Source of the DNA: a virus
Length of the DNA stretch: 23,785 nt
Strand: one strand, 5' to 3'
IMG/VR virus record: IMGVR_UViG_3300017730_000089
Coordinates: 1-23,785 of that record
Under the pieces are notes generated by a model. That model was not told the DNA's origin, did no database searches, and saw only the letters and a list, made by a program, of their open reading frames with translations. Of the stretch, positions 1 through 12,992 are shown one piece after another. The translations under genes were made by a program, and so were the position numbers. How positions within the stretch are numbered: position 1 is the stretch's first letter; every line of letters begins with the position of its first letter.

Positions 1-2645
1 AAATAAACTGTTGTTCCATCATGGAATAGTACTATCTTTAAAGTTTGATAATCACTATCTGTGGAATTTGTAACTTGTACTGTATATTCAGCACTTCTAA
101 ATACTGATGCGCTGAATGAGTTAAGTGTGAATTGTGCTGTAGAAGATGAACTTCCTGTACCAACATCCATACCAGCTACTTCGTCTATGTGGAATTTTTG
201 TGGTGGATTTGGGTCTTGAATACCAATAAGCTGTGCTTTTAATCTTGTAGAAGCATTAACTATTGCTATCTGTGCAGTACCTGTAAATGATTGCCCACTT
301 AAAGCATCTGATTTAAGTTCAGAAGCTGATACTGAGTTAGCTGCTATCTCACTTGACCCAACAGCGTTTGCTTGTATCTTTGCGGCTGTTACAGAGTTAC
401 CTGCTAGTTGAGCAGTGTTAACCTGTGCATCGTCAATATGTCTAGTAAGAATACTATTCTGTGCTATCTTTGTGCCATCTACTGCGTTATCTGCAATATT
501 ACCAGTTGCAATTGTGTTTGCGGCTATCTGGTCAGTAGTAATTTGGTTATCATCAATATGCTGTGTTAATATAGCATTGTCTGCTATTTTAGCTGATGTA
601 ACTGCATCATCTGCAATCATTAAAGTTGTAATACTATTGGTTGCTATTTTAGCAGTAGTAATTGCATTATCTGCTACGTCTGCTGTTGCAATAGTGCCAT
701 TTGATATTAAGTCTGATGTAATTAGACCGCTTGATATAAATGCTACACTATTGATAGCGTTATCTCCTATCTTAGCTGATGTTACTGCATCACTTGCTAA
801 TTGAGCTGCTCCTACTTGTCCATCGTCAATATGTTGAGTAAGAATACTATTCTGAGCAATCTCACTTGAACCTACTTGGTTAGCCCCTATCTTAGCTGAT
901 GTTACTGCGTTTGCTGCAATGTGTATTGCATCTATACTGCCAGTTACTAATTCTGCGCTATCTACTGTGTTTGCGGCTAAAGATGTTGATAAAGCTACTG
1001 CAGCTCCGCCATTAAAGTTAATAGCTGAAGCAGTTACATCTCCTGTTAAAGAGAAAGCTCTTGTTGTTGCTAGAGTAGTTGCTGTATCAGCGTTACCTGT
1101 TAAAGCACCTGTTACATCTCCATAAAGTCTACCTGCTTGTATATTTGCATTTGTAAGAGATAAGTCTCCAGTTGATGCACCTGTTGCTGTTGTAGTTGCA
1201 AATCTTACTCTGTCTGCACTTTCATCCCAACCTATGAATACATTATCAGAACTTCCTCTTTCGAGAACAATACCCATATCTCCTGATGGAGAACCTGATG
1301 TGCCGTTTGCAAGTTCGATTAACTTATCTGAAATAACTGTGTTTGTTGATGCCGCAGTAGTTGTTGTACCATTAACTGTTAAGTTACCTGATAGTGTGAC
1401 ATTACCTGTGAATGTTTGACCACCAAGTGCATCTGATTTAAGTTCAGAGGCTGATACAGCGTTAGCTGCTATCTCGCTTGAATCTACTGCACCAGCTGCT
1501 ATGTGTTTAGCTAGTACTTGGTCTGTTGCTATTTTTGCTGAAGTTACATTGTTATCTACAATTTTTGCTGTTGTTATATTACCTGCAGCAATATGAACAG
1601 TATCAACACTACCATCTACAAGATGTTCGCTGTTAATTGCATCATCAGCTATCTTAGTACCGTCTACTGCGTCAGCGGCTAGCTGTGCAGTATCTACTTG
1701 ACCGTCATCTATATGTTTTGTTAAAATACTATTTTGAGCAATCTTAGTTCCATCTACAGCATTATCTGCTATATTGGATGTTGCAATAGTATTTGCTGCT
1801 ATATCTCCTGATACAATAGTACCATCTGTGATATGGTCTGAAGCTATAACTCCAGAAGGTAACTTAGCTGCTGTAATTGCATTGTCTGCTATTTTTGCTG
1901 TTGTTACATTTGCGTTTAGTATCTTTGCAGTAATAACTGCATCACTTGCTATATCCCCTGCTACTATTGTTGCATTGAGTATTTGGTCTGTTGTAATCTG
2001 ACCATCGTCTATGTGTCTTGTTAAAATACTGTTTGATGCTATCTTTGAACCATCTACTGCATTATCTGCTATGTTCGCAGTAGCAATTGTATTTCCTGCT
2101 ATCTGGTCAGTAGTAATTTGATTGTCATCAATATGTCTTGTTAAAATACTATTCGATGCAATTTTTGTTCCGTCTATAGTGTTATCTGCTATTGCTGTAC
2201 CTGTTACGGAATTTATTGCTAGTTCACTCGCATTGATTGAGTTGAGTGCGATTTCTGTTGAAGAGACTGAGTTTGCTGCTAACTCTGAGTTAGTTACTTG
2301 GTCTGCTCCTATTTTAGCAGTTGTAACTGCTCCTGTTGCTAAATGAATAGCGTCTATTGAACCTGTGACTAATTCTGAAGAATCTACTGAGTTTTCTGCT
2401 ATAGCAGCTGCGTCAATAGAGTTATCTGCTACGGCTGTAATAGCACTTGCTTGTAACTGAGCTGCTGCAATAGCGTTAGTAGCAATCTCAGATGTTCCAA
2501 CAGCGTTTGCTGAAATCTCTGAACTACCAACAGCGTTTGCTGCTATTTCACTCGCAGTTACGGAATTAGAAACAATTTCACTGCTTCCTACTGCATTTGC
2601 TTCAAGTACTGAAACTAATGCGTTTTGTTTTCCTATAAGTGCCAT
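1..2645 (-). CDS. Distal tail fibre protein with decapeptide repeats (3' end outside window)
   Basis: This partial reading frame starts at ATG 2645 and stays open to the left edge, giving 881 codons without a stop. The start is supported by GGAG ten bases upstream and by lying one base after the preceding stop. Three parts are visible. Residues 1 to about 390 and about 557 to 765 are tandem 10-residue repeats of the type IADNAVDGTK / IASNSILTRH. Between them lies a non-repetitive domain (about 395-555) that includes GDMGIVLERG and VFIGWDE. After the second repeat block an apparent C-terminal domain begins (from about 770) with KFHIDEVAGMD. The linker ASELKSDAL occurs once after each repeat block. 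I infer an extended, probably trimeric fibre shaft with globular inserts that reaches the host surface. It is the last gene visible in a run of fibre genes behind the promoter at 5738-5766. The exact family and adhesin tip are not visible. Confidence 0.85.
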   Translation of the reverse strand, partial: MALIGKQNALVSVLEANAVGSSEIVSNSVTASEIAANAVGSSEISANAVGTSEIATNAIAAAQLQASAITAVADNSIDAAAIAENSVDSSELVTGSIDAIHLATGAVTTAKIGADQVTNSELAANSVSSTEIALNSINASELAINSVTGTAIADNTIDGTKIASNSILTRHIDDNQITTDQIAGNTIATANIADNAVDGSKIASNSILTRHIDDGQITTDQILNATIVAGDIASDAVITAKILNANVTTAKIADNAITAAKLPSGVIASDHITDGTIVSGDIAANTIATSNIADNAVDGTKIAQNSILTKHIDDGQVDTAQLAADAVDGTKIADDAINSEHLVDGSVDTVHIAAGNITTAKIVDNNVTSAKIATDQVLAKHIAAGAVDSSEIAANAVSASELKSDALGGQTFTGNVTLSGNLTVNGTTTTAASTNTVISDKLIELANGTSGSPSGDMGIVLERGSSDNVFIGWDESADRVRFATTTATGASTGDLSLTNANIQAGRLYGDVTGALTGNADTATTLATTRAFSLTGDVTASAINFNGGAAVALSTSLAANTVDSAELVTGSIDAIHIAANAVTSAKIGANQVGSSEIAQNSILTQHIDDGQVGAAQLASDAVTSAKIGDNAINSVAFISSGLITSDLISNGTIATADVADNAITTAKIATNSITTLMIADDAVTSAKIADNAILTQHIDDNQITTDQIAANTIATGNIADNAVDGTKIAQNSILTRHIDDAQVNTAQLAGNSVTAAKIQANAVGSSEIAANSVSASELKSDALSGQSFTGTAQIAIVNASTRLKAQLIGIQDPNPPQKFHIDEVAGMDVGTGSSSSTAQFTLNSFSASVFRSAEYTVQVTNSTDSDYQTLKIVLFHDGTTVY
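355..975 (-). repeat. Second decapeptide (30-bp) repeat block of distal fibre gene
   Basis: Degenerate in-frame 30-bp repeats encode units such as IGANQVGSSE and IADNAVDGTK. Hydrophobic residues (I, L or V) recur every ten residues beside small and polar ones. Copies of the ILTRHIDD / ILTQHIDD unit are seen near 436, 556 and 829. The block ends at the repeated linker ASELKSDAL. Confidence 0.85.
1480..2630 (-). repeat. First decapeptide (30-bp) repeat block with 120-bp higher-order copies
   Basis: In-frame 30-bp repeats encode units such as GSSEISANAV and IADNAVDGTK. A longer 40-residue (120-bp) period is superimposed: the ILTRHIDD unit begins at 2131 and again at 2011, exactly 120 bp apart, with a related ILTKHIDD copy at 1711. 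Similarity at DNA level is high between neighbouring 120-bp copies, which suggests recent expansion. Confidence 0.85.
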
Positions 2646-4994: not shown

Positions 4995-5378
4995 CTAAAA
5001 GCTCCCTGCGTCTACCGTGTCTGAATCACTCGAAGCGTTCCCTATCATTATAGGTACAAATTGAAATGTTCCAGCGCTAATCTCTCGGTAGATCTTTAAC
5101 TGATTGTCATCAGTATCATAAAATAAGTCTCCTTCTGCTAGGTTTGTTGTTCCTGCAGTAGGAGCTGATGTTTGCACAAAGAAATTATTTGCAAGATAAT
5201 TTAATGCGTCTTTTATATTATTGTTAGCGCCATCAAATCCAGAGACCGCATTTTCGAAAGTTATACCTGCTGCGTCAGAGGATGCCCCTCCAACTGCTGA
5301 TGATATCGTAAGCGTTGTAGTGTTACTGGTGGCTGAAATTGCTGTTGTATTAGGAGTAATAGTTAATTTGGTAGCCAT
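4995..5378 (-). CDS. Small fibre/baseplate accessory protein
   Basis: A 127-residue protein with a Thr/Ser-rich N-terminus (beta repeats in residues 1-30), a helical stretch around NNNIKDALNYLANNFF, and a C-terminal part with NLAEGDLFYDTDDNQLKIY. The latter resembles the EGELAY...KLYVG core of the tropism-determinant-like module in the two fibre genes downstream, but here it sits at the C-terminus. The last residues DTVDAGSF echo LDGGTF at the end of the 593-residue fibre protein. Its ATG overlaps the upstream stop by one base (TAATG), so it depends on translation of the preceding gene. I infer a structural adaptor in the fibre assembly. No enzymatic motif is visible. Confidence 0.75.
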   Translation of the reverse strand: MATKLTITPNTTAISATSNTTTLTISSAVGGASSDAAGITFENAVSGFDGANNNIKDALNYLANNFFVQTSAPTAGTTNLAEGDLFYDTDDNQLKIYREISAGTFQFVPIMIGNASSDSDTVDAGSF

Positions 5379-5716
5379 TATCGTGTAACTTCCTGTGTGA
5401 CTCTTGCGACGCCTTGAATTAGTCTAGTTACAGTACTTGTATTTGTATTTACTAGTTCTAAATCGTAATAATATTTTCCTGCAGATATACCTGCTGTGAC
5501 TGTGTTAGTCAAAGCCATCTTCATAACTCCATTAGCGGCATCGCTAATAGAACAAGTGAAGTCTGCAGTTTTTGTTGCTGAACTAGGAGTTGGACGCAGT
5601 TGTGCTCGTACGGAATGTGTACTTAAGTTCACATTCGACCCGTCTTGTGCTATCTGTATTTGAATTGTAAAGTCAGACCCTTGGTCGACTACAATATCAT
5701 AAGTTCCTGCTGCCAT
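5378..5716 (-). CDS. Ig-like/BppU-like structural protein, first gene behind late promoter
   Basis: A 112-residue, beta-strand-rich protein that begins AAGTYDIVVDQGSDFTIQIQ and ends LIQGVARVTQEVTR. The layout (GxYDI, QGxxF, a strand with xVRAQLRP, then AGKYYYDLEL and VTRL) matches small phage baseplate or fibre N-terminal domains of BppU type as I remember them; the assignment is by pattern only. It is the first gene after the consensus promoter at 5738-5766, with a strong ribosome binding site AGGAGT six bases before the ATG. The leader is very short, about 15 nt. It probably anchors or decorates the fibre complex, and being first and well translated suggests several copies per virion. Confidence 0.8.
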   Translation of the reverse strand: MAAGTYDIVVDQGSDFTIQIQIAQDGSNVNLSTHSVRAQLRPTPSSATKTADFTCSISDAANGVMKMALTNTVTAGISAGKYYYDLELVNTNTSTVTRLIQGVARVTQEVTR

Positions 5717-5808: not shown

Positions 5809-6252
5809 TTATCCATAGGTACCTGAGCCATATAGTACCGTGGCAAATTGTATCTCTAACGCTTGAGCTTTGTCGCTATCTGCCATTATAGTCTTTGCCC
5901 AATTTAACATCATTGTTTCCGTTACATTTTCGTAGGGGGTAACAAAGCCAGATAACTCGCCATTTGCTTTATGTCTCCAAGGAAGTGGTATACTTAATGT
6001 TTCAGAATGAGTTTGGTCTGATTGTCCGCTAGTTAAACTAGAGGCATTACCAGTAGTTGTATCTGTTCCTGTAACTGTCATAGATACAGTTTTTACCATA
6101 TCTGATTCTCTTCTTCTTGGCATACATTGATTATTAACAAAGTTTTGTGTTTCATGTCCTACATAGGCATAAGTCCAATTCCATTGCACATCAAGTGTGG
6201 TTGTTATTGGGTCTCCATTACCATCTGTTCCTGTTTGTATTATCCAATTCAT
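5809..6252 (-). CDS. Conserved-position hypothetical protein downstream of J
   Basis: A 147-residue protein I do not recognise. It starts MNWIIQTGTDGNGDPITTTLD, and tryptophans cluster early (W3, W24, W26). The middle is Thr/Ser/Asp-rich and the C-terminal third contains a helical segment NWAKTIMADSDKAQALEIQF. There is no signal peptide, membrane segment or catalytic motif. Its ATG overlaps the stop of J by one base (TAATG), and an AGGAGG at 6268-6273 lies inside the end of J. It ends 92 nt before the promoter, so it is the last gene of the tail-module transcript. Tight coupling to J suggests a tip-associated or J-chaperone role, but that is only inferred from position. Confidence 0.7.
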   Translation of the reverse strand: MNWIIQTGTDGNGDPITTTLDVQWNWTYAYVGHETQNFVNNQCMPRRRESDMVKTVSMTVTGTDTTTGNASSLTSGQSDQTHSETLSIPLPWRHKANGELSGFVTPYENVTETMMLNWAKTIMADSDKAQALEIQFATVLYGSGTYG

Positions 6253-6746
6253 TATTGTTTCTGATTGCCTCCTACGTTATGTGCTATATATCCATTACCA
6301 TTACCACCTTTAACTACATAAGTATCATCTTCTTCCACATCCATATTATAAGTAAGACAATTTATTGTTTTTTGTGGTATTGCAAATATCTCTTCTCTTG
6401 AGCCGTCCTCTAATATTAAATAGTCACCGACTGCTAGATTTGAGACTTCTACGAATTTGAATACTCCATCTTTAAAAGCTAACATTGGATGTTCGTTTGT
6501 AACTTTTAGATTGTAATTAATCCAATAGTAATTATTATATTCATGAGCATCTGTTCTTGCTTTTACTGTTGAAGTACCAAAACTTCCACTTGCAATTTCT
6601 GTAGCAGTCCAAGTTTCCCATGCATCCTCACTACTTGCGTCTAAGGTAGAGTGCTTAAATGATTTTACACTATCATTTACAGCGACTGCTTCTATTGCTT
6701 TCAATGAACCATCTGACATAACGACAGGAGTTCCTTCAACAAAGCA
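6252..6746 (-). other. C-terminal Hint (intein-like) domain of J
   Basis: The last 164 residues of J carry the recognisable blocks of a Hint fold. Block A starts with Cys2083 (CFVEGTPVVMSDGSLKAIEA). Block B is KVTNEHPML with the T-x-x-H arrangement (His2168). Block F is CLTYNMDVEEDDTYVVKGG. Block G is GYIAHN, ending in His2238-Asn2239. The residue after Asn is Val2240, not Cys, Ser or Thr, and only seven residues remain, so a normal splicing C-extein is missing. No endonuclease domain fits in this length. The domain resembles bacterial intein-like or Hedgehog-type autoprocessing modules. Cys, TxxH and HN are all intact, so self-cleavage at Gly2082-Cys2083 is plausible but unproven. Confidence 0.88.
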
Positions 6747-9700
6747 GCCTCCGCCACCTCCGCCTCCACCTCCGCCTCCAGAGGTGCCTCCTGTTGTTAC
6801 TGAAAAACCTTGTGTACTTTCACCGATAGTGACTACTGTACTTCTAGTAGTTGAATTACTTGATGCAGAAGTTATTTCTACATTTATGTAACTACCGTTT
6901 GCAATATTTACTGAAGAATTTCCAAATGCTCCGCCATCGATACTAAATCTTGTGAATGAAGGATTAGTTACACTTACAGTTTTAGTCCCTGCAAATCCAC
7001 CAACAACTTGTGTGTTAGAGAAAAAAGTACTACTCACTGCTACACCTGTTTGGTTAGCAAAACTATATATTGGGTCTGTAGTTCCAAACTTGATAAATCT
7101 TGCTTCAGCTGACCCTAATGTTTCTGCTCCATCTCCCTGTGCTCTTACAAAAGCTGCAATAGTTGAGGAGCCTGTATAACTAAATGCAATCGGCATATTA
7201 GCTGTTTGTGCACTAGAGAATAGTCTACCTTCTGATAGGTTTCCTGCTGTATATTGGTCTACCCTAGGAGTTTCATATATTAGATTTCCTTCACTTGCTG
7301 TAGAACTTCCGTCTCTGATTTGGATTGAAATAGTCTTAACATGGTTTGTTCCCCCTGTTAATCTTACAAAGCCTTGATAGAATCCTGCTCCTGTTCCAAT
7401 AGTAGTAATAAACTTATTGTCCATAGTATTGTTTTGGAAAGTTCCTATTGTACCACCTGCTGTATTTGCACCTGATGAAGGTAGAATTAAGTTTCCGTTT
7501 ACGGTTATATCATCTCCTTCTAGTGTTCCTTTGAACTTAGCATTTCCTGATGAGTCAATATGGAATTCTTTTGCATGAATTGACCCTGCACTATTTAATT
7601 GTATTCCCTGATTTGTAAAATTGTTTGCTTGTACTGTTGGACTTCCACCTGAGAAAGCACCAGAGGTAACTGTCCAGCCCCCTGTTGTTCCTCCCTCAAT
7701 ATTTAGAGTTAAAGAATCTGATGAGGATATTTTAGCATTTGTAATAGCATTTCCTTTTATGGTTGCGTTTTCAACAGCGTCTGCAGCTATCAATGCATTT
7801 GTAATCTGATTTGAAGCAATATGTATAGTATCAATACTACCTGTTTTTATTTCTGCTGTATCAATAGAATTTGCAGCTATTAGTGCTGATGTGATAGCAC
7901 ACGCGGCTATTTGTGCAGTGCCTATTGTTCCTGTAAGTGTGCCAGCCGCGACTGACCCAATCATAGCACTAGTAATATTACCGTTTGCGGATATTTTTGC
8001 ACCATCAATGTCTCCATCGGACACGGATATTTTTGCAAATGTAATTCCTGCTGAAGCATTTATTTCTGCATTAGTTATAGTACCACCTACAATTTTTGCG
8101 GCAGTAATTGAGTTAGCTGTTATATTATCTCCAGTTACCCCATCATTTTGAATAACAACACTATTTACAGAGTTAATTGCTATTTGATTATTAGTAATAG
8201 AGTTTGCAGCTATAAGAACTGCATTTACTGAGTTTGCTTGAATTTCTGAAGTTTGAATAGCATTTGCTGCAACAAGAGCTGCTGTAATACTGTTGGCAGC
8301 TATCATACTAGTATCAATTACATTGGCTGCAACTATTCTTGAATCATTTATAGAGTTGTCTGCTAACTTAGTTCCTGAGATAATAGCATTTCCTAATTTA
8401 CCTGCTGCATCAATAGCTCCATCTGCTATGATAATACCATTTACAGAGTTAACTGCTATTTCACTACTTCCTACTGAATTTCCTATTAGTATTGTACCAT
8501 TAACTGAATTAGCAGCTATTTCTGAACTGCCTATACTGTTTGCGGCGATTTCTACATTTGTAATACTATTAGCTGTGACTGTAAAAGAGCCTACTGCGTT
8601 TGATGTTAACTGTGAGGATGTAATACTATTAGCTGCAATCGCTACTGTTCCAATTGAATTAGCTGCAATTTCTGAGCTTCCTATAGCATTAGCTGTAACG
8701 GCTACACTACCTATTGAGTTTGCAGATATTTCTGAACTACCTATTGCGTTGGCTGTTATAGCTGCACTGCCTATTGAGTTTGCTGATATATGGGAAGAAT
8801 CTATTTCTCCTGCTACTATTTGTGCAGAATCTATTGAGTTTGCTGCTATGTGTGAGTTGTTAATCTGCCCTGCTACTATTGCTGCTGCTCCTATTGAATT
8901 AGCTTGAATAATAGTAGAGTTAACAGAGTTTGCTAATATCTGTACTGATGTGATTGTATTACCACCGATTTCATCAGAGGTATCAACTTTCATTTTATTT
9001 GTAAATGGAGTATAACTATAAGTACTTCCACTTCTTGAAATTTGTCCTAAAATACTATCTTTTAAATGGTCGTATGTTAAACCTTGTTTATGAACAGTTT
9101 TTCCACTATATGCTCTACTTGGGCTACTATCCATTACTAGAGAAGTATCGCTTTCTATCTCTACAATTTTTGCCATAAATCTAGTGGCTCCTGCTGTATC
9201 TATTGCGATAACATCTCCTTCCGTAAAGTCAGAAGTAAAAGTTGTACTACTACCTGTAAGTTCTGGTAATCCTGCTGTTGCTGATACTGTTCCACTTGCT
9301 TGAGTTAAGTCATTATTCGATGCTCCAAGCTGTGCCATAAATTGATAATTATACTTAGCACTTGTTACTGCATCTATTGCACTTGTATCTTCTACAAGGG
9401 TAATTGCTTTTAAAGGGTCACTAGTATCACTATAATCATATAGTAAGAAACCTGTGCCACCATCTGCTAAATTATTGAATCCGTCTTGTACTGTTTTTGC
9501 GGCATTACCGTTTGAAACTGTTATTGCTGGAACACTATTTGGTGGAGTAAATACATAAGTAGTATTTGCAAAAGTTGTAGTACCATTAGTACTATTTACA
9601 TTTACAACTGTTGTTAGTATACCACCTTTTTGTATTAAGTGATTCATACCAGCAGATATAGCTCCTTGTCCAAATATTGCATAAGCACTATCTGGGAAGC

Positions 9701-12700
9701 TTACTTGTCTTTGTACCCAACCAGAAGTTCTACCATTTGTAGCTACTGTTTGAACTCTAAATTTATAAGCTGCTCCTGGTACAACATTACTAAATACATA
9801 GTCTGATTTATTATTAGAGTCTAAGAATACAGTTGTAAATTCTCTATTACTATCTCTATCATCATTTTCTAAGTCTAAATTATGTTGAATATTATAACCT
9901 ACTAAATGTTCATAAACATCTACTAAATCATTACCATTTGAATCTGTTCTTTGTGTAGTTGGGTGAGTCCAATTTAATACGATAGAGTAGTCATTATTGT
10001 TATCTCCATCTCCTACATTGTCTCCTCCATTTGAACTTCCTGGTACTATCTGTGCAGTTAATCCTATTGGTACAGGAATTTCATCTGTTCTTGCGGGAGG
10101 TTTATATAAAGTATCGGGATATTCTGGAACTTTCCAACCTCTATCTACTGCATCAAATTTGCCTGATTCATAAGCTGCTGCTGCAATACTTACTTGCATA
10201 TCATCTTCATGTTTTATACTCGAAATAATATACTCTTTAAAACTACCTGCAATTTTAACATTATCATCAGTCTCTCCTGAAACTGTATATATTACTTCAC
10301 CGTTTGGTGCAGAACTAAATGCGCTTGATACAGTTATAGATGTAGTATTAAAAGAGCTTACTGCTTGAGTTTCTATTCTAAGGTCATCTGACCAATAAGT
10401 TTGTACAACTGCTCCACTATCATCTTTTATATTACTAGCTTTAGCGTGACTATCAACAGCTGCTCCATCTTCATCAAGTAGTATTAAATCTCCTTGTGTA
10501 TAAGAAGTTGAATTAATAGTAGCCAGAGGCTGTGCCAAATAAGCACCACCATTTGGGTATATTAAGTGTAATTTAAAATTATCACTATTATTTAAGAATG
10601 AACTTAAATCTCTGTCTGTTCTTATAATTGTTGTTGTAGAAGAAGCTGAAGTAGTAACACGACCACTTGCAACTATATCTTGTAAATCTGAATCTTGTAC
10701 TTTTATGACATCACCAGGTTTTAAACCTAATGCATTTAATCCTGTTTTAAATGTTACTACTTCTTTTTCAAGTTGTTCTGATAACAATTGGTATTTACCA
10801 TGTCTTACAGCTTGTCCTTGTGAAGTACAGCCATAGGCTGCAACATTTTTTCTTCTAACTTTACCTGTTTTTGCAATGTCATCGTGGTCTTCTACAACTT
10901 CTACTGCTTGTTTATAGCCATTCTCTGGGTCATTCCAACTTACTGCTATCTGATTATTTCTAAATCTACCTGCCGTACCTGCATAATTAAATTCTCCATC
11001 AATTACATTTGATTTTGAGAAAGTATAAATAGCTCCTTTTTGTTGATTCATTCCAAGAGTTACTTGTCCATTGTACCATACTAACATGGCTCTTAGTTGA
11101 GAAGCTAAGTTCTTTAAAAATTTAATTGCGTCTTGGTCTTTCTGAACATATAAGTTAGTAGTAAATCTAGGTTCTGTTCCACCTTTTCCATCAGGAACTA
11201 ATTCATCACAATACTTTGCTAATTGAAATAAAGTATATTTATCTATGCTACTAAAGTCAAAGTCTTCATCTAAGTATTTACCTAATCCGTATCTTTGATT
11301 TGTTAGTAAGTCATAAAATACCCAAATAGGGTTGTTTGTATATACTGGTTCATAGTTTGCATGAGTAGCACTTGTAAAAGTTTTTTGGTCTCCTCTAAAA
11401 TTACCATCCCAATCTTGTACGGAACTTTCTTCTGCTCCTGTACTTACATTTCTTTGATAAGAAGCTGTAGTTCTTCTTACTCCTGTTGCTGTGTTTGCTT
11501 CATCAAGCGGAAAATAATTTGTAGGAACTTTTACTTTTAGTCCACGAATTTCATAACTTCTTTTTGGTATTTGTTGAAAATCTTTCGCATCTACAACAAC
11601 CCCTGCATATGCAGAATATGGGAAAGTTAATTTATCAGTAATAATATTTTCAATTTGTTTTACAGTACCACTATTATTTTGTTGCCAACTATTTTCTTTT
11701 TGATTAACTGCTGAGATTCTTTCAATTGTTAATCTGTAAGCATCAAATGGTTGATATTTACTTATATCAAAAGTATAAACATGATTGAATGGTTGTTTAG
11801 TTTTTGCTGATATAATGCCACTTTGTGCGTCTTTTGTTCTACCATTTCTATGATAAGAGGATGTACTAGTAGCAATTGTAGCTCTACCTACTTTTGTTAC
11901 ATCTGTATAACTACTTCCACCGTCTCTAGAATATCCAAATTTGATTCTGTATTCAGCAAACCCAGGACCAAGCTTACCATTTTCTTTTTGTGAAATCATA
12001 GTATTAAACTGTAAAGTTACTTTAACTGCATCTACTTCTGAAGGATTTCCAACTCCCATTGTAGAAGAAGTTACTACTAAAGCATTTCCTGAGTATGATG
12101 TTGTTTCTTTAAACCCAAAAGAACTTGCACTAGGATATCCTGTATTTTGTGTAGTACCAAGAGCTCCTCCTGATACTGAGTGAGCAATAGAAGCACTACC
12201 TATACCTGCTGGAGTAGGTAACCATTCTTGTTCACGCTCTCCTGTTCTAAATGCAAATCCAAAGTTTTCGTAGTTATATAAAGGTTGTTGTTGTTCTGTT
12301 CGAGAAGGACTTCCCATTTGTACACCAGTATTTGCAACAGTTACTCCTGCGGCTGTAATAGTAGCAGTATTACCACTAAAACTATCTACAGTATCTTTTA
12401 AATCTAAATATGCTTTTGTATTTGTTACAGTTGTCATAGGAACTGTATCTACTCTTATTGCAGTTGTGTTTATTTGTTCTGTGATTCCTGCTATGAGTTG
12501 TCCGCCATTACGCCCAGCCCCATCAATACGAATCATTGGTTGTATACCAACGCCATCCCAAACATCACTTGCTGCAAAAGACATATTTCCACTATTTGTA
12601 GAAAGAACAATATTGTTACCTGCTACACAATTAATAGAAGAAGTTGTTCTTTTACTTGCGCCTTGTACTATTATTTCTCTTGTTCCATCGGATATAGAAG

Positions 12701-12992
12701 CACCGCTAAATATATTACCTGTTGAATTATCTGTAATTACTCCTGTTCCGTGAACATAACCAGCATCAAAAGATCTTTGCGGAGATATTGCAGTAGCATT
12801 TGTAGCATTTGCAACAGGATTGTCGTTTAATCTAATACTTGCAACACCATCTACCAGTCCTTCAATAGGTCCTTCAGATAATAAATCATAGATAACGGCA
12901 GTTTGAGCACGAATAAGTCCACTAGACTTTACTCCTGCTGAATCGAGAGGCGCTGAACCTCTTGTATTACCTTGTGATGTATTTTGTGCCAT
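6252..12992 (-). CDS. J: Tail tip / host-specificity protein J with repeat stalk and C-terminal Hint domain
   Basis: A 2246-residue central tip protein, equivalent to lambda gpJ (about 1130 residues) but twice as long. The N-terminal third begins with a gpJ-like segment (VIYDLLSEGPIEGLVDG near residue 35) and continues through NQRYGLGKYL and VRHGKYQLLSEQLEKE to about 900, the part that folds onto the tip hub. A fibronectin-III-like domain follows (about 970-1100, GYNIQHNLD, then AYKFRVQTV). Residues about 1344-1757 are decapeptide repeats, then a beta segment (SAGSIHAKEFHIDSSGNAKF), an Ig-like domain (about 1975-2065), eleven glycines, and a Hint domain (2083-2239). The start is fixed by a perfect AGGAGG seven bases upstream and by a TAATG overlap with gene I. 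It likely recognises the host and triggers DNA release. The size, repeats and intein-like end are unusual. Confidence 0.93.
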   Translation of the reverse strand: MAQNTSQGNTRGSAPLDSAGVKSSGLIRAQTAVIYDLLSEGPIEGLVDGVASIRLNDNPVANATNATAISPQRSFDAGYVHGTGVITDNSTGNIFSGASISDGTREIIVQGASKRTTSSINCVAGNNIVLSTNSGNMSFAASDVWDGVGIQPMIRIDGAGRNGGQLIAGITEQINTTAIRVDTVPMTTVTNTKAYLDLKDTVDSFSGNTATITAAGVTVANTGVQMGSPSRTEQQQPLYNYENFGFAFRTGEREQEWLPTPAGIGSASIAHSVSGGALGTTQNTGYPSASSFGFKETTSYSGNALVVTSSTMGVGNPSEVDAVKVTLQFNTMISQKENGKLGPGFAEYRIKFGYSRDGGSSYTDVTKVGRATIATSTSSYHRNGRTKDAQSGIISAKTKQPFNHVYTFDISKYQPFDAYRLTIERISAVNQKENSWQQNNSGTVKQIENIITDKLTFPYSAYAGVVVDAKDFQQIPKRSYEIRGLKVKVPTNYFPLDEANTATGVRRTTASYQRNVSTGAEESSVQDWDGNFRGDQKTFTSATHANYEPVYTNNPIWVFYDLLTNQRYGLGKYLDEDFDFSSIDKYTLFQLAKYCDELVPDGKGGTEPRFTTNLYVQKDQDAIKFLKNLASQLRAMLVWYNGQVTLGMNQQKGAIYTFSKSNVIDGEFNYAGTAGRFRNNQIAVSWNDPENGYKQAVEVVEDHDDIAKTGKVRRKNVAAYGCTSQGQAVRHGKYQLLSEQLEKEVVTFKTGLNALGLKPGDVIKVQDSDLQDIVASGRVTTSASSTTTIIRTDRDLSSFLNNSDNFKLHLIYPNGGAYLAQPLATINSTSYTQGDLILLDEDGAAVDSHAKASNIKDDSGAVVQTYWSDDLRIETQAVSSFNTTSITVSSAFSSAPNGEVIYTVSGETDDNVKIAGSFKEYIISSIKHEDDMQVSIAAAAYESGKFDAVDRGWKVPEYPDTLYKPPARTDEIPVPIGLTAQIVPGSSNGGDNVGDGDNNNDYSIVLNWTHPTTQRTDSNGNDLVDVYEHLVGYNIQHNLDLENDDRDSNREFTTVFLDSNNKSDYVFSNVVPGAAYKFRVQTVATNGRTSGWVQRQVSFPDSAYAIFGQGAISAGMNHLIQKGGILTTVVNVNSTNGTTTFANTTYVFTPPNSVPAITVSNGNAAKTVQDGFNNLADGGTGFLLYDYSDTSDPLKAITLVEDTSAIDAVTSAKYNYQFMAQLGASNNDLTQASGTVSATAGLPELTGSSTTFTSDFTEGDVIAIDTAGATRFMAKIVEIESDTSLVMDSSPSRAYSGKTVHKQGLTYDHLKDSILGQISRSGSTYSYTPFTNKMKVDTSDEIGGNTITSVQILANSVNSTIIQANSIGAAAIVAGQINNSHIAANSIDSAQIVAGEIDSSHISANSIGSAAITANAIGSSEISANSIGSVAVTANAIGSSEIAANSIGTVAIAANSITSSQLTSNAVGSFTVTANSITNVEIAANSIGSSEIAANSVNGTILIGNSVGSSEIAVNSVNGIIIADGAIDAAGKLGNAIISGTKLADNSINDSRIVAANVIDTSMIAANSITAALVAANAIQTSEIQANSVNAVLIAANSITNNQIAINSVNSVVIQNDGVTGDNITANSITAAKIVGGTITNAEINASAGITFAKISVSDGDIDGAKISANGNITSAMIGSVAAGTLTGTIGTAQIAACAITSALIAANSIDTAEIKTGSIDTIHIASNQITNALIAADAVENATIKGNAITNAKISSSDSLTLNIEGGTTGGWTVTSGAFSGGSPTVQANNFTNQGIQLNSAGSIHAKEFHIDSSGNAKFKGTLEGDDITVNGNLILPSSGANTAGGTIGTFQNNTMDNKFITTIGTGAGFYQGFVRLTGGTNHVKTISIQIRDGSSTASEGNLIYETPRVDQYTAGNLSEGRLFSSAQTANMPIAFSYTGSSTIAAFVRAQGDGAETLGSAEARFIKFGTTDPIYSFANQTGVAVSSTFFSNTQVVGGFAGTKTVSVTNPSFTRFSIDGGAFGNSSVNIANGSYINVEITSASSNSTTRSTVVTIGESTQGFSVTTGGTSGGGGGGGGGGGCFVEGTPVVMSDGSLKAIEAVAVNDSVKSFKHSTLDASSEDAWETWTATEIASGSFGTSTVKARTDAHEYNNYYWINYNLKVTNEHPMLAFKDGVFKFVEVSNLAVGDYLILEDGSREEIFAIPQKTINCLTYNMDVEEDDTYVVKGGNGNGYIAHNVGGNQKQ
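6268..6273 (-). promoter_or_regulatory. AGGAGG Shine-Dalgarno inside the last codons of J
   Basis: AGGAGG on the minus strand is encoded within the Val-Gly-Gly codons (GTA GGA GGC) that directly follow the His-Asn end of the Hint domain. The spacing to ATG 6252 is 15 bases, longer than ideal, so initiation probably also relies on the TAATG overlap. Confidence 0.55.
6747..6779 (-). repeat. Eleven-glycine linker tract (GGN repeat)
   Basis: Eleven consecutive Gly codons, mostly alternating GGA with GGC or GGT, sit immediately before Cys2083 of the Hint domain. In an AT-rich gene this is a marked G-rich patch on the coding strand. It is a flexible linker in the protein and a low-complexity DNA tract prone to slippage or exchange. 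Confidence 0.9.
7720..8960 (-). repeat. Decapeptide-repeat stalk of J
   Basis: About 40 in-frame degenerate 30-bp units encode decapeptides such as NSIGSSEIAA. Ile or Val recurs at fixed positions, Asn-Ser or Asn-Ala before a hydrophobic residue. A 60-bp sub-period is clear around 8641-8800, where units alternate between GSSEI and GSVAV/GTVAI types. The repeat language is the same as in the distal fibre gene at the left edge. Confidence 0.85.

Follow-up and report, generated by a model that had tools for sequence, protein, structure and literature searches.

A BIL-like and probably self-processing Hint domain closes the tail-tip protein of a lambda-like virus

Protein J, the tail tip of an uncultured, lambda-like virus encoded in a 23,785-base record (the whole stretch of DNA that was analyzed, here called the window) ends in a Hint domain that, judged by its profile matches, motifs and predicted fold, is real and catalytically plausible. 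The reading that we favor, with somewhat better than even confidence, is a self-processing domain of the bacterial intein-like (BIL) kind, similar to the A type, closing a lambda-type tail-tip protein. It probably releases itself by cleavage or joins the tip to an amine; we infer its chemistry, products and role. The novelty of the J domain would lie in where BIL-like self-processing takes place, on a phage tail tip and at its very end, and in its belonging to a viral class that recurs. Other virus proteins, tail proteins among them, close with the same design, which has drawn little remark.

The Hint domain of J

The window carries a lambda-like tail cluster on its minus strand. Ahead of J come genes matching lambda M, L, K and I, and the J core is present, as in a lambda J carrier; the I-like gene upstream of J matches PHROG 32 (3e-40) and gives a Pfam Lambda_tail_I match below cut-off. 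J itself (6252..12992, minus strand), a J-type tail-tip or central tail fiber protein of 2246 residues, carries the Hint domain. Its matches to the PHROG profile "central tail fiber J" (E 1.2e-121), to Pfam Phage-tail_3 (2.1e-22) and to NCBIfam lambda_TipJ (1e-61, but at 208.7 bits far under the model cut-off of 1950) mark it as a lambda-type tail-tip protein. The J core matches 1509 records in the phage collection. The repetitive shaft of J (residues ~1380-1680, with IAANSIGSSEI-type repeats) resembles part of a large ORF at the left end of the window (3..2645, minus strand), which suggests fiber repeats shared by the two.

The Hint domain, delimited by Pfam, motifs and predicted fold, spans J residues 2083-2239 (6276..6746, minus strand). 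It directly follows a glycine-rich linker, GGTSGGGGGGGGGGG (J 2068-2082; 6747..6791, minus strand), that sets 11 glycines immediately before Cys2083. Alignment of J-linked domains makes Cys2083 (6744..6746, minus strand) Hint residue 1, the predicted nucleophile of an N-S acyl shift, and places block B at Thr2165-x-x-His2168 (6489..6500, minus strand); block G is His2238-Asn2239 (6276..6281, minus strand). A sequence-only reading of this DNA had claimed a Hint domain with these residues at the extreme C-terminus of J, and all of them are found where it put them. Its statement that Asn is followed by Val also holds, but not its count of seven more residues after that Val: the tail is seven residues in all, VGGNQKQ (J 2240-2246; 6255..6275, minus strand), with Lys2245 at 6258-6260.

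The same reading had proposed profile search and structure prediction as checks, and both return a Hint. The isolated domain matches two Pfam models above cut-off, Hom_end_hint (8.6e-8, domain residues 1-27 only, just over the curated cut-off) and PT-HINT (1.1e-6, residues 48-157, 29.3 bits against a cut-off of 27.7), and both matches sink below cut-off when the full 2246-residue J is searched. NCBIfam intein_Nterm and intein_Cterm stay below cut-off, and PDB sequence matches are weak, the best (E 0.0083) being an archaeal RadA intein. An AlphaFold2 model built from the 21-row alignment has the Hint fold by both Foldseek and VIA-align. Foldseek returns 49 PDB chains at E <= 1e-3, every one an intein, BIL or hedgehog entry. 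The top VIA-align match is BIL2 of Tetrahymena BUBL1 (Z 18.3, rmsd 1.7 A, 135 residues), with which a C. thermocellum BIL at Z 17.6 counts as tied; inteins follow from Z 17.0 downward (DnaB intein Z 17.0), and Hedgehog 1at0 stands at Z 16.2. The predicted fold is closest to BIL structures, an argument that depends on the single good model among five (pLDDT 81.6, pTM 0.79; the remaining four are poor, with pLDDT 45.8-57.3).

Searching viral contigs with the window's domain gives 19 loci, 17 of them with the same linker-Hint-short-tail end, and a search by profile brought 149 relatives, of which 80 were kept. The J-linked set consists of 21 distinct domains, the window's included. Twelve of them have the J core in direct view within their own ORF or contig; the remaining contigs end before the core, and there the assignment follows from shared domain, tail and next gene. 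Residue 1 is Cys in 18 domains, and its only substitution is to Ser, likewise a nucleophile, in three domains whose linker is acidic and ends in EEEA in place of glycine. T83, H86, H156 and N157 (Hint numbering) are invariant in all 21, and the +1 residue is V, I, N, A or K, never C, S or T. Inteins often have His in block F; the J-linked domains have Asp or Thr in its place. With a median dN/dS of 0.19 (219 of 231 pairs with 0.05<dS<1.5), the Hint is under purifying selection. Conserved active-site residues of this kind indicate catalytic potential and are not proof of activity. In the phage collection at E <= 1e-3, NCTB is the sole match to the window's domain, and a scan of GTDB genome contigs with the Hint gives one locus only, archaeal and distant.

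An accessory module and the gene behind it

Two close J relatives, L102 and L103, have cores 91% and 87% identical to that of the window's J, and both end at ...EARFI(K/R)FG(V/L)S. Beyond this point J of the window and of L112, L130 and L016 adds about 95 residues, the glycine linker and the Hint. Because L102 and L103 stop just before it, we regard this segment, linker and Hint as an accessory C-terminal module (J residues ~1973-2246; 6255..7076, minus strand). The pre-linker segment (J ~1973-2067; 6792..7076, minus strand) is a candidate Ig-like domain, judged by eye; against Pfam it has no match at E <= 1. The 3' ends of J relatives were examined at 47 of 51 loci (four partial matches were left out). 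Twenty of the 47 are complete, with the Hint present in 6 (4 distinct, 2 of the 6 being identical to the window's) and absent in 14; one relative, L109, ends close to the contig end and may be truncated. The Hint is located in a variable region, although the core of J is that of a conserved tail protein.

The next gene (5809..6252, minus strand), whose ATG overlaps the J stop by one base, encodes a 147-residue protein of Pfam family DUF7936. A phmmer search with this protein yields 51 relatives, all 51 directly behind a Hint-bearing ORF, and none lies in the Hint-less J loci that were laid out for comparison. A dedicated partner of the Hint was attractive at first on this count. The gene behind the Hint-less J of L103, however, has a weak DUF7936 match (20.6 bits against a cut-off of 27), and so the DUF7936 gene does not look dedicated; the partial gene behind the Hint-less J of L102 has no DUF7936 match. 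The predicted fold of the DUF7936 product finds no PDB match at E <= 1e-3. Where J lacks a Hint and is more distant, the interval between it and the gene matching window positions 5378-5716 holds five small genes, several of them starting MANR(V/L/I) (L122 13234-15521, L123 8665-10861, L125 8577-10764). Since they fill the slot after J, that slot looks like a swap region.

C-terminal Hints on other viral proteins

The layout of J recurs: a carrier protein, often a Gly-rich linker, a Hint running from Cys1 to His-Asn, a few residues, and the end. Eight isolate proteins were used (three from NCTB and one each from Alexandra, Yoloswag, AD1, Y3 and fHe-Yen9-02), leaving out three further Erwinia phage proteins and the other records of two listings (48 and 41 records). 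Phage NCTB bears the linker-Hint-short-tail end on BN7874_132 and BN7874_136; its BN7874_135 is a degenerate stand-alone Hint copy without Cys1 or the block-B His, and so inactive versions exist. The three NCTB Hint proteins lie inside one tail cluster (L145, 5224-12483). In Alexandra, Yoloswag, AD1, Y3 and fHe-Yen9-02 the C-terminal Hint is on a protein annotated as virion structural protein. The tail or virion proteins of NCTB, Y3, Alexandra and AD1 resemble J in having a C-terminal Hint ("intein domain") and a short Lys-containing tail, and NCTB also has polyglycine before the Hint, one copy being 27% identical to the window's domain; they differ in their carrier proteins, and the Erwinia/Dickeya copies have Thr at +1.

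Among contigs, a lambda I-like tail assembly protein (L267, 1870-3000; PHROG 32, 6.5e-37) ends in a Hint with just one Lys behind its His-Asn (HNK, then stop). The same Hint lineage occurs in L276, L278 and L280, the PHROG 32 scan within it being of L267 only. A J-like tail fiber protein (L224; PHROG 5616, 1.1e-61) also has a C-terminal Hint, and further carriers are proteins of no assigned role. The PHROG 38766 ("virion structural protein") matches of L155, L051, L075 and L062 fall mainly on the Hint, so they do not mark these carriers as virion proteins. One wider scan covered 35 of 80 loci, 11 of them chosen by hand since little follows the Hint; the rest were mostly contigs already in the set, with some further intein-like rows. 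Among the 55 distinct viral Hints at a C-terminus, 37 have Gly immediately before residue 1; residue 1 itself is Cys in 51 of the 55, Ser in 3 and Met in 1. Block B reads TxxH in 41 of 42 C-terminal viral Hints checked for it. Other viral proteins have internal Hints, often with Lys at +1 (one row of six, a false His-Asn assignment in J-Hints, is left out of this tally).

Three loci (L051, L052 and L075) have a second C-terminal Hint, with tails KGASSEP, KGASSEP and KGSNSNPF in an automated pass, and so some viruses carry more than one. In L262-L266, L268, L271, L309 and L310 an internal Hint ending HNKG runs into a second Hint-like N-terminal half (CFxxGTxxxMADGSTK), an arrangement that has the look of tandem Hint pieces. 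L275 (586-3675) encodes a protein in which an S74-like stretch (HNKSDARLKRNI...; Pfam S74 at 20.7 bits, under its cut-off of 22) comes immediately after the Hint; it may combine two devices for self-processing.

GenBank notes on tail proteins of Y3 and NCTB read "contains intein domain", and since databases already list some such domains as "intein domain" or "Hint", this type of domain was known before. The passages and listings consulted, which take in few subscription papers, describe no C-terminal Hint on a J protein and no conserved tail Lys.

Proposed chemistry, the tail lysine and related systems

A-type BIL domains, reportedly the subject of work by Amitai in 2003 and Dassa in 2004, share with the J domain the Hint fold, Cys1, TxxH, a terminal His-Asn, the lack of a +1 nucleophile, small size and a variable location. 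The J domain is unlike them in sitting on a phage tail-tip protein, at its extreme C-terminus, with seven residues after Asn and a pure glycine run before. Its motifs and its fold matches to 6y75 and 2lwy make it resemble the A type. BIL domains are described as having no +1 nucleophile and mainly cleaved products (PMC7664689), and A-type BILs as retaining His-Asn and sitting in variable regions of non-conserved proteins (PMC7765530). BIL2 (6y75, 6tmm), among the best fold matches, is described in PMC8616854 as forming an isopeptide, K(eNH2)-C-terminus, with a Lys of the neighboring C-terminal domain, its own C-flank. BIL2 differs in being a ciliate domain between two ubiquitin-like domains, 25% identical over aligned residues, where J has only a short tail.

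Because of these reports on products and isopeptide, a thioester at Gly2082-Cys2083 followed by loss of the Hint is the most likely course. After J synthesis, Cys2083 would attack the Gly2082 carbonyl and convert the peptide bond to a thioester, assisted by Thr2165 and His2168. Water or an amine would then resolve the thioester, freeing the 18-kDa Hint and leaving the glycine linker as the end of J; cyclization of Asn2239 could release the seven-residue tail. The Hint would be a removable end piece of the accessory tip module and would serve either to help folding or assembly or to cap or link the glycine end. Of the amines that the protein itself offers, that of the tail Lys would be the likeliest acceptor.

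The distribution of that Lys bears on a more specific version of this course, in which a tail Lys of the same or a neighboring chain attacks the Gly-Cys1 thioester and the glycine end is joined to the Lys side chain. A first set of 42 distinct C-terminal Hints, which form 10 lineages at 50% identity, has Lys without exception in the tail of 3-18 residues. This pattern was noticed post hoc; a test was then fixed in advance and run on two new scans. Of nine new lineages eight have the tail Lys, against 3.4 expected from gene ends of the same contigs (P 0.0012), and the combined counts are 54 of 55 distinct domains and 18 of 19 lineages, against 7.2 expected (P 8.9e-8). Control gene ends number 250 in the earlier set and 324 in the later, 55-domain analysis. 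Arg is scarce, being in every member of only one of the 19 lineages against 7.9 expected, so the Lys enrichment is not mere positive charge; none of 12 other residues tested is enriched in the tails. The two scans examined 59 loci (57 of 80 and 2 of 7, with known lineages and 18 short matches left out): 16, of which 13 are distinct, qualified as C-terminal, 21 have more than 20 residues after HN, 12 have no HN, 2 have HN too far on, and 8 run off the contig. An automated pass over all 330 loci, which removes the hand choice of domains, matched 300 frames (141 are C-terminal, 146 lack HN close to the stop, and 13 run off) and finds Lys in 62 of 63 distinct domains and 19 of 20 lineages. A lone Lys makes up the entire tail in one lineage, which comprises 4 distinct sequences.

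These counts and the isopeptide reported for BIL2 (PMC8616854) argue for the Lys version; other observations argue against it, and we hold it only tentatively. The lineages share ancestry, and the signal weakens as they are drawn more loosely, to 9 of 10 at 40% clustering (P 2.7e-4) and 4 of 5 at 35% (P 0.028); at 30% all C-terminal Hint lineages merge into one group. L254 lacks the tail Lys. Lys shortly after HN is also common in internal Hints, and so the tail Lys may be a trait of the Hint clade to which these domains belong. All 18 J-linked sequences with Cys1 have this Lys one residue from the end, and its codon in J stands just ahead of the start of the next gene. A ribosome-binding constraint is a possible reason, yet controls with the same one-base overlap give it no support, having Lys at -2 in only 11 of 108 (10%). 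Slightly more doubtful is the extension of this version to a class of viral terminal "isopeptide Hints", in which the glycine end of a fiber or tip would be activated as a thioester and handed to a Lys of its own or a neighbor's tail. If true, this would be an ATP-free, ubiquitin-like conjugation at the phage tail end.

Beta-rich domains are common at phage fiber ends, and the degenerate NCTB copy would fit a dead Hint, retained as a structural cap or adhesin without chemistry. We consider this unlikely for J, given that all 21 J-linked domains keep TxxH and HN and have only Cys or Ser as residue 1, and given the 51 Cys and 3 Ser against a single Met among the 55. Less probable again is a weapon or glue, by which the tip would couple covalently, via the thioester, to another virion protein or a host-surface amine. 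The Hint does sit at the far end of the host-recognition protein, and BIL2 is a reported precedent for amine attack on a Hint thioester, but no partner was found, and the DUF7936 gene does not look dedicated in light of L103. Least probable of all, although fold and motifs match inteins, is invasion of the J gene by an ordinary mini-intein at its 3' end, which was rejected in agreement with the sequence-only reading: +1 is Val where a class 1 splicing intein has Cys, Ser or Thr, only seven residues follow Asn with no C-extein and no room for a homing endonuclease, and the intein-less relatives L102 and L103 do not join flanks, containing neither the preceding segment nor the tail.

Other known systems share some features with J. 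The Hedgehog Hog domain (1at0, Z 16.2) is likewise a C-terminal Hint that uses an N-terminal thioester; J has no sterol-recognition region, only seven residues after Asn, and keeps His-Asn and a tail, and Hedgehog-like lipid transfer is ruled out for want of a recognition region. PT-HINT toxin delivery shares a profile match with J, but no toxin domain follows the J Hint, and toxin release is ruled out with nothing encoded after it. A divergent Hint-like domain also ends certain bacterial proteins, some of which have signal peptides; it is set beside J for C-terminal placement by description only, from PMC2362128, where it is called unlike intein, Hog and BIL domains. The Peptidase_S74 or endosialidase intramolecular chaperone is a functional analog, a C-terminal, self-removing phage fiber domain of an unrelated domain family.

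Known self-removing phage fiber ends are mainly S74-type chaperones. If the BIL-like reading is true, the J Hint would be a second, chemically different self-removing fiber end, one that places an activated ester at the tip of a host-recognition protein. C-terminal viral Hints might become ready tools for protein ligation, and in the phages themselves the finding would bear on fiber maturation and on possible covalent links made by virions.
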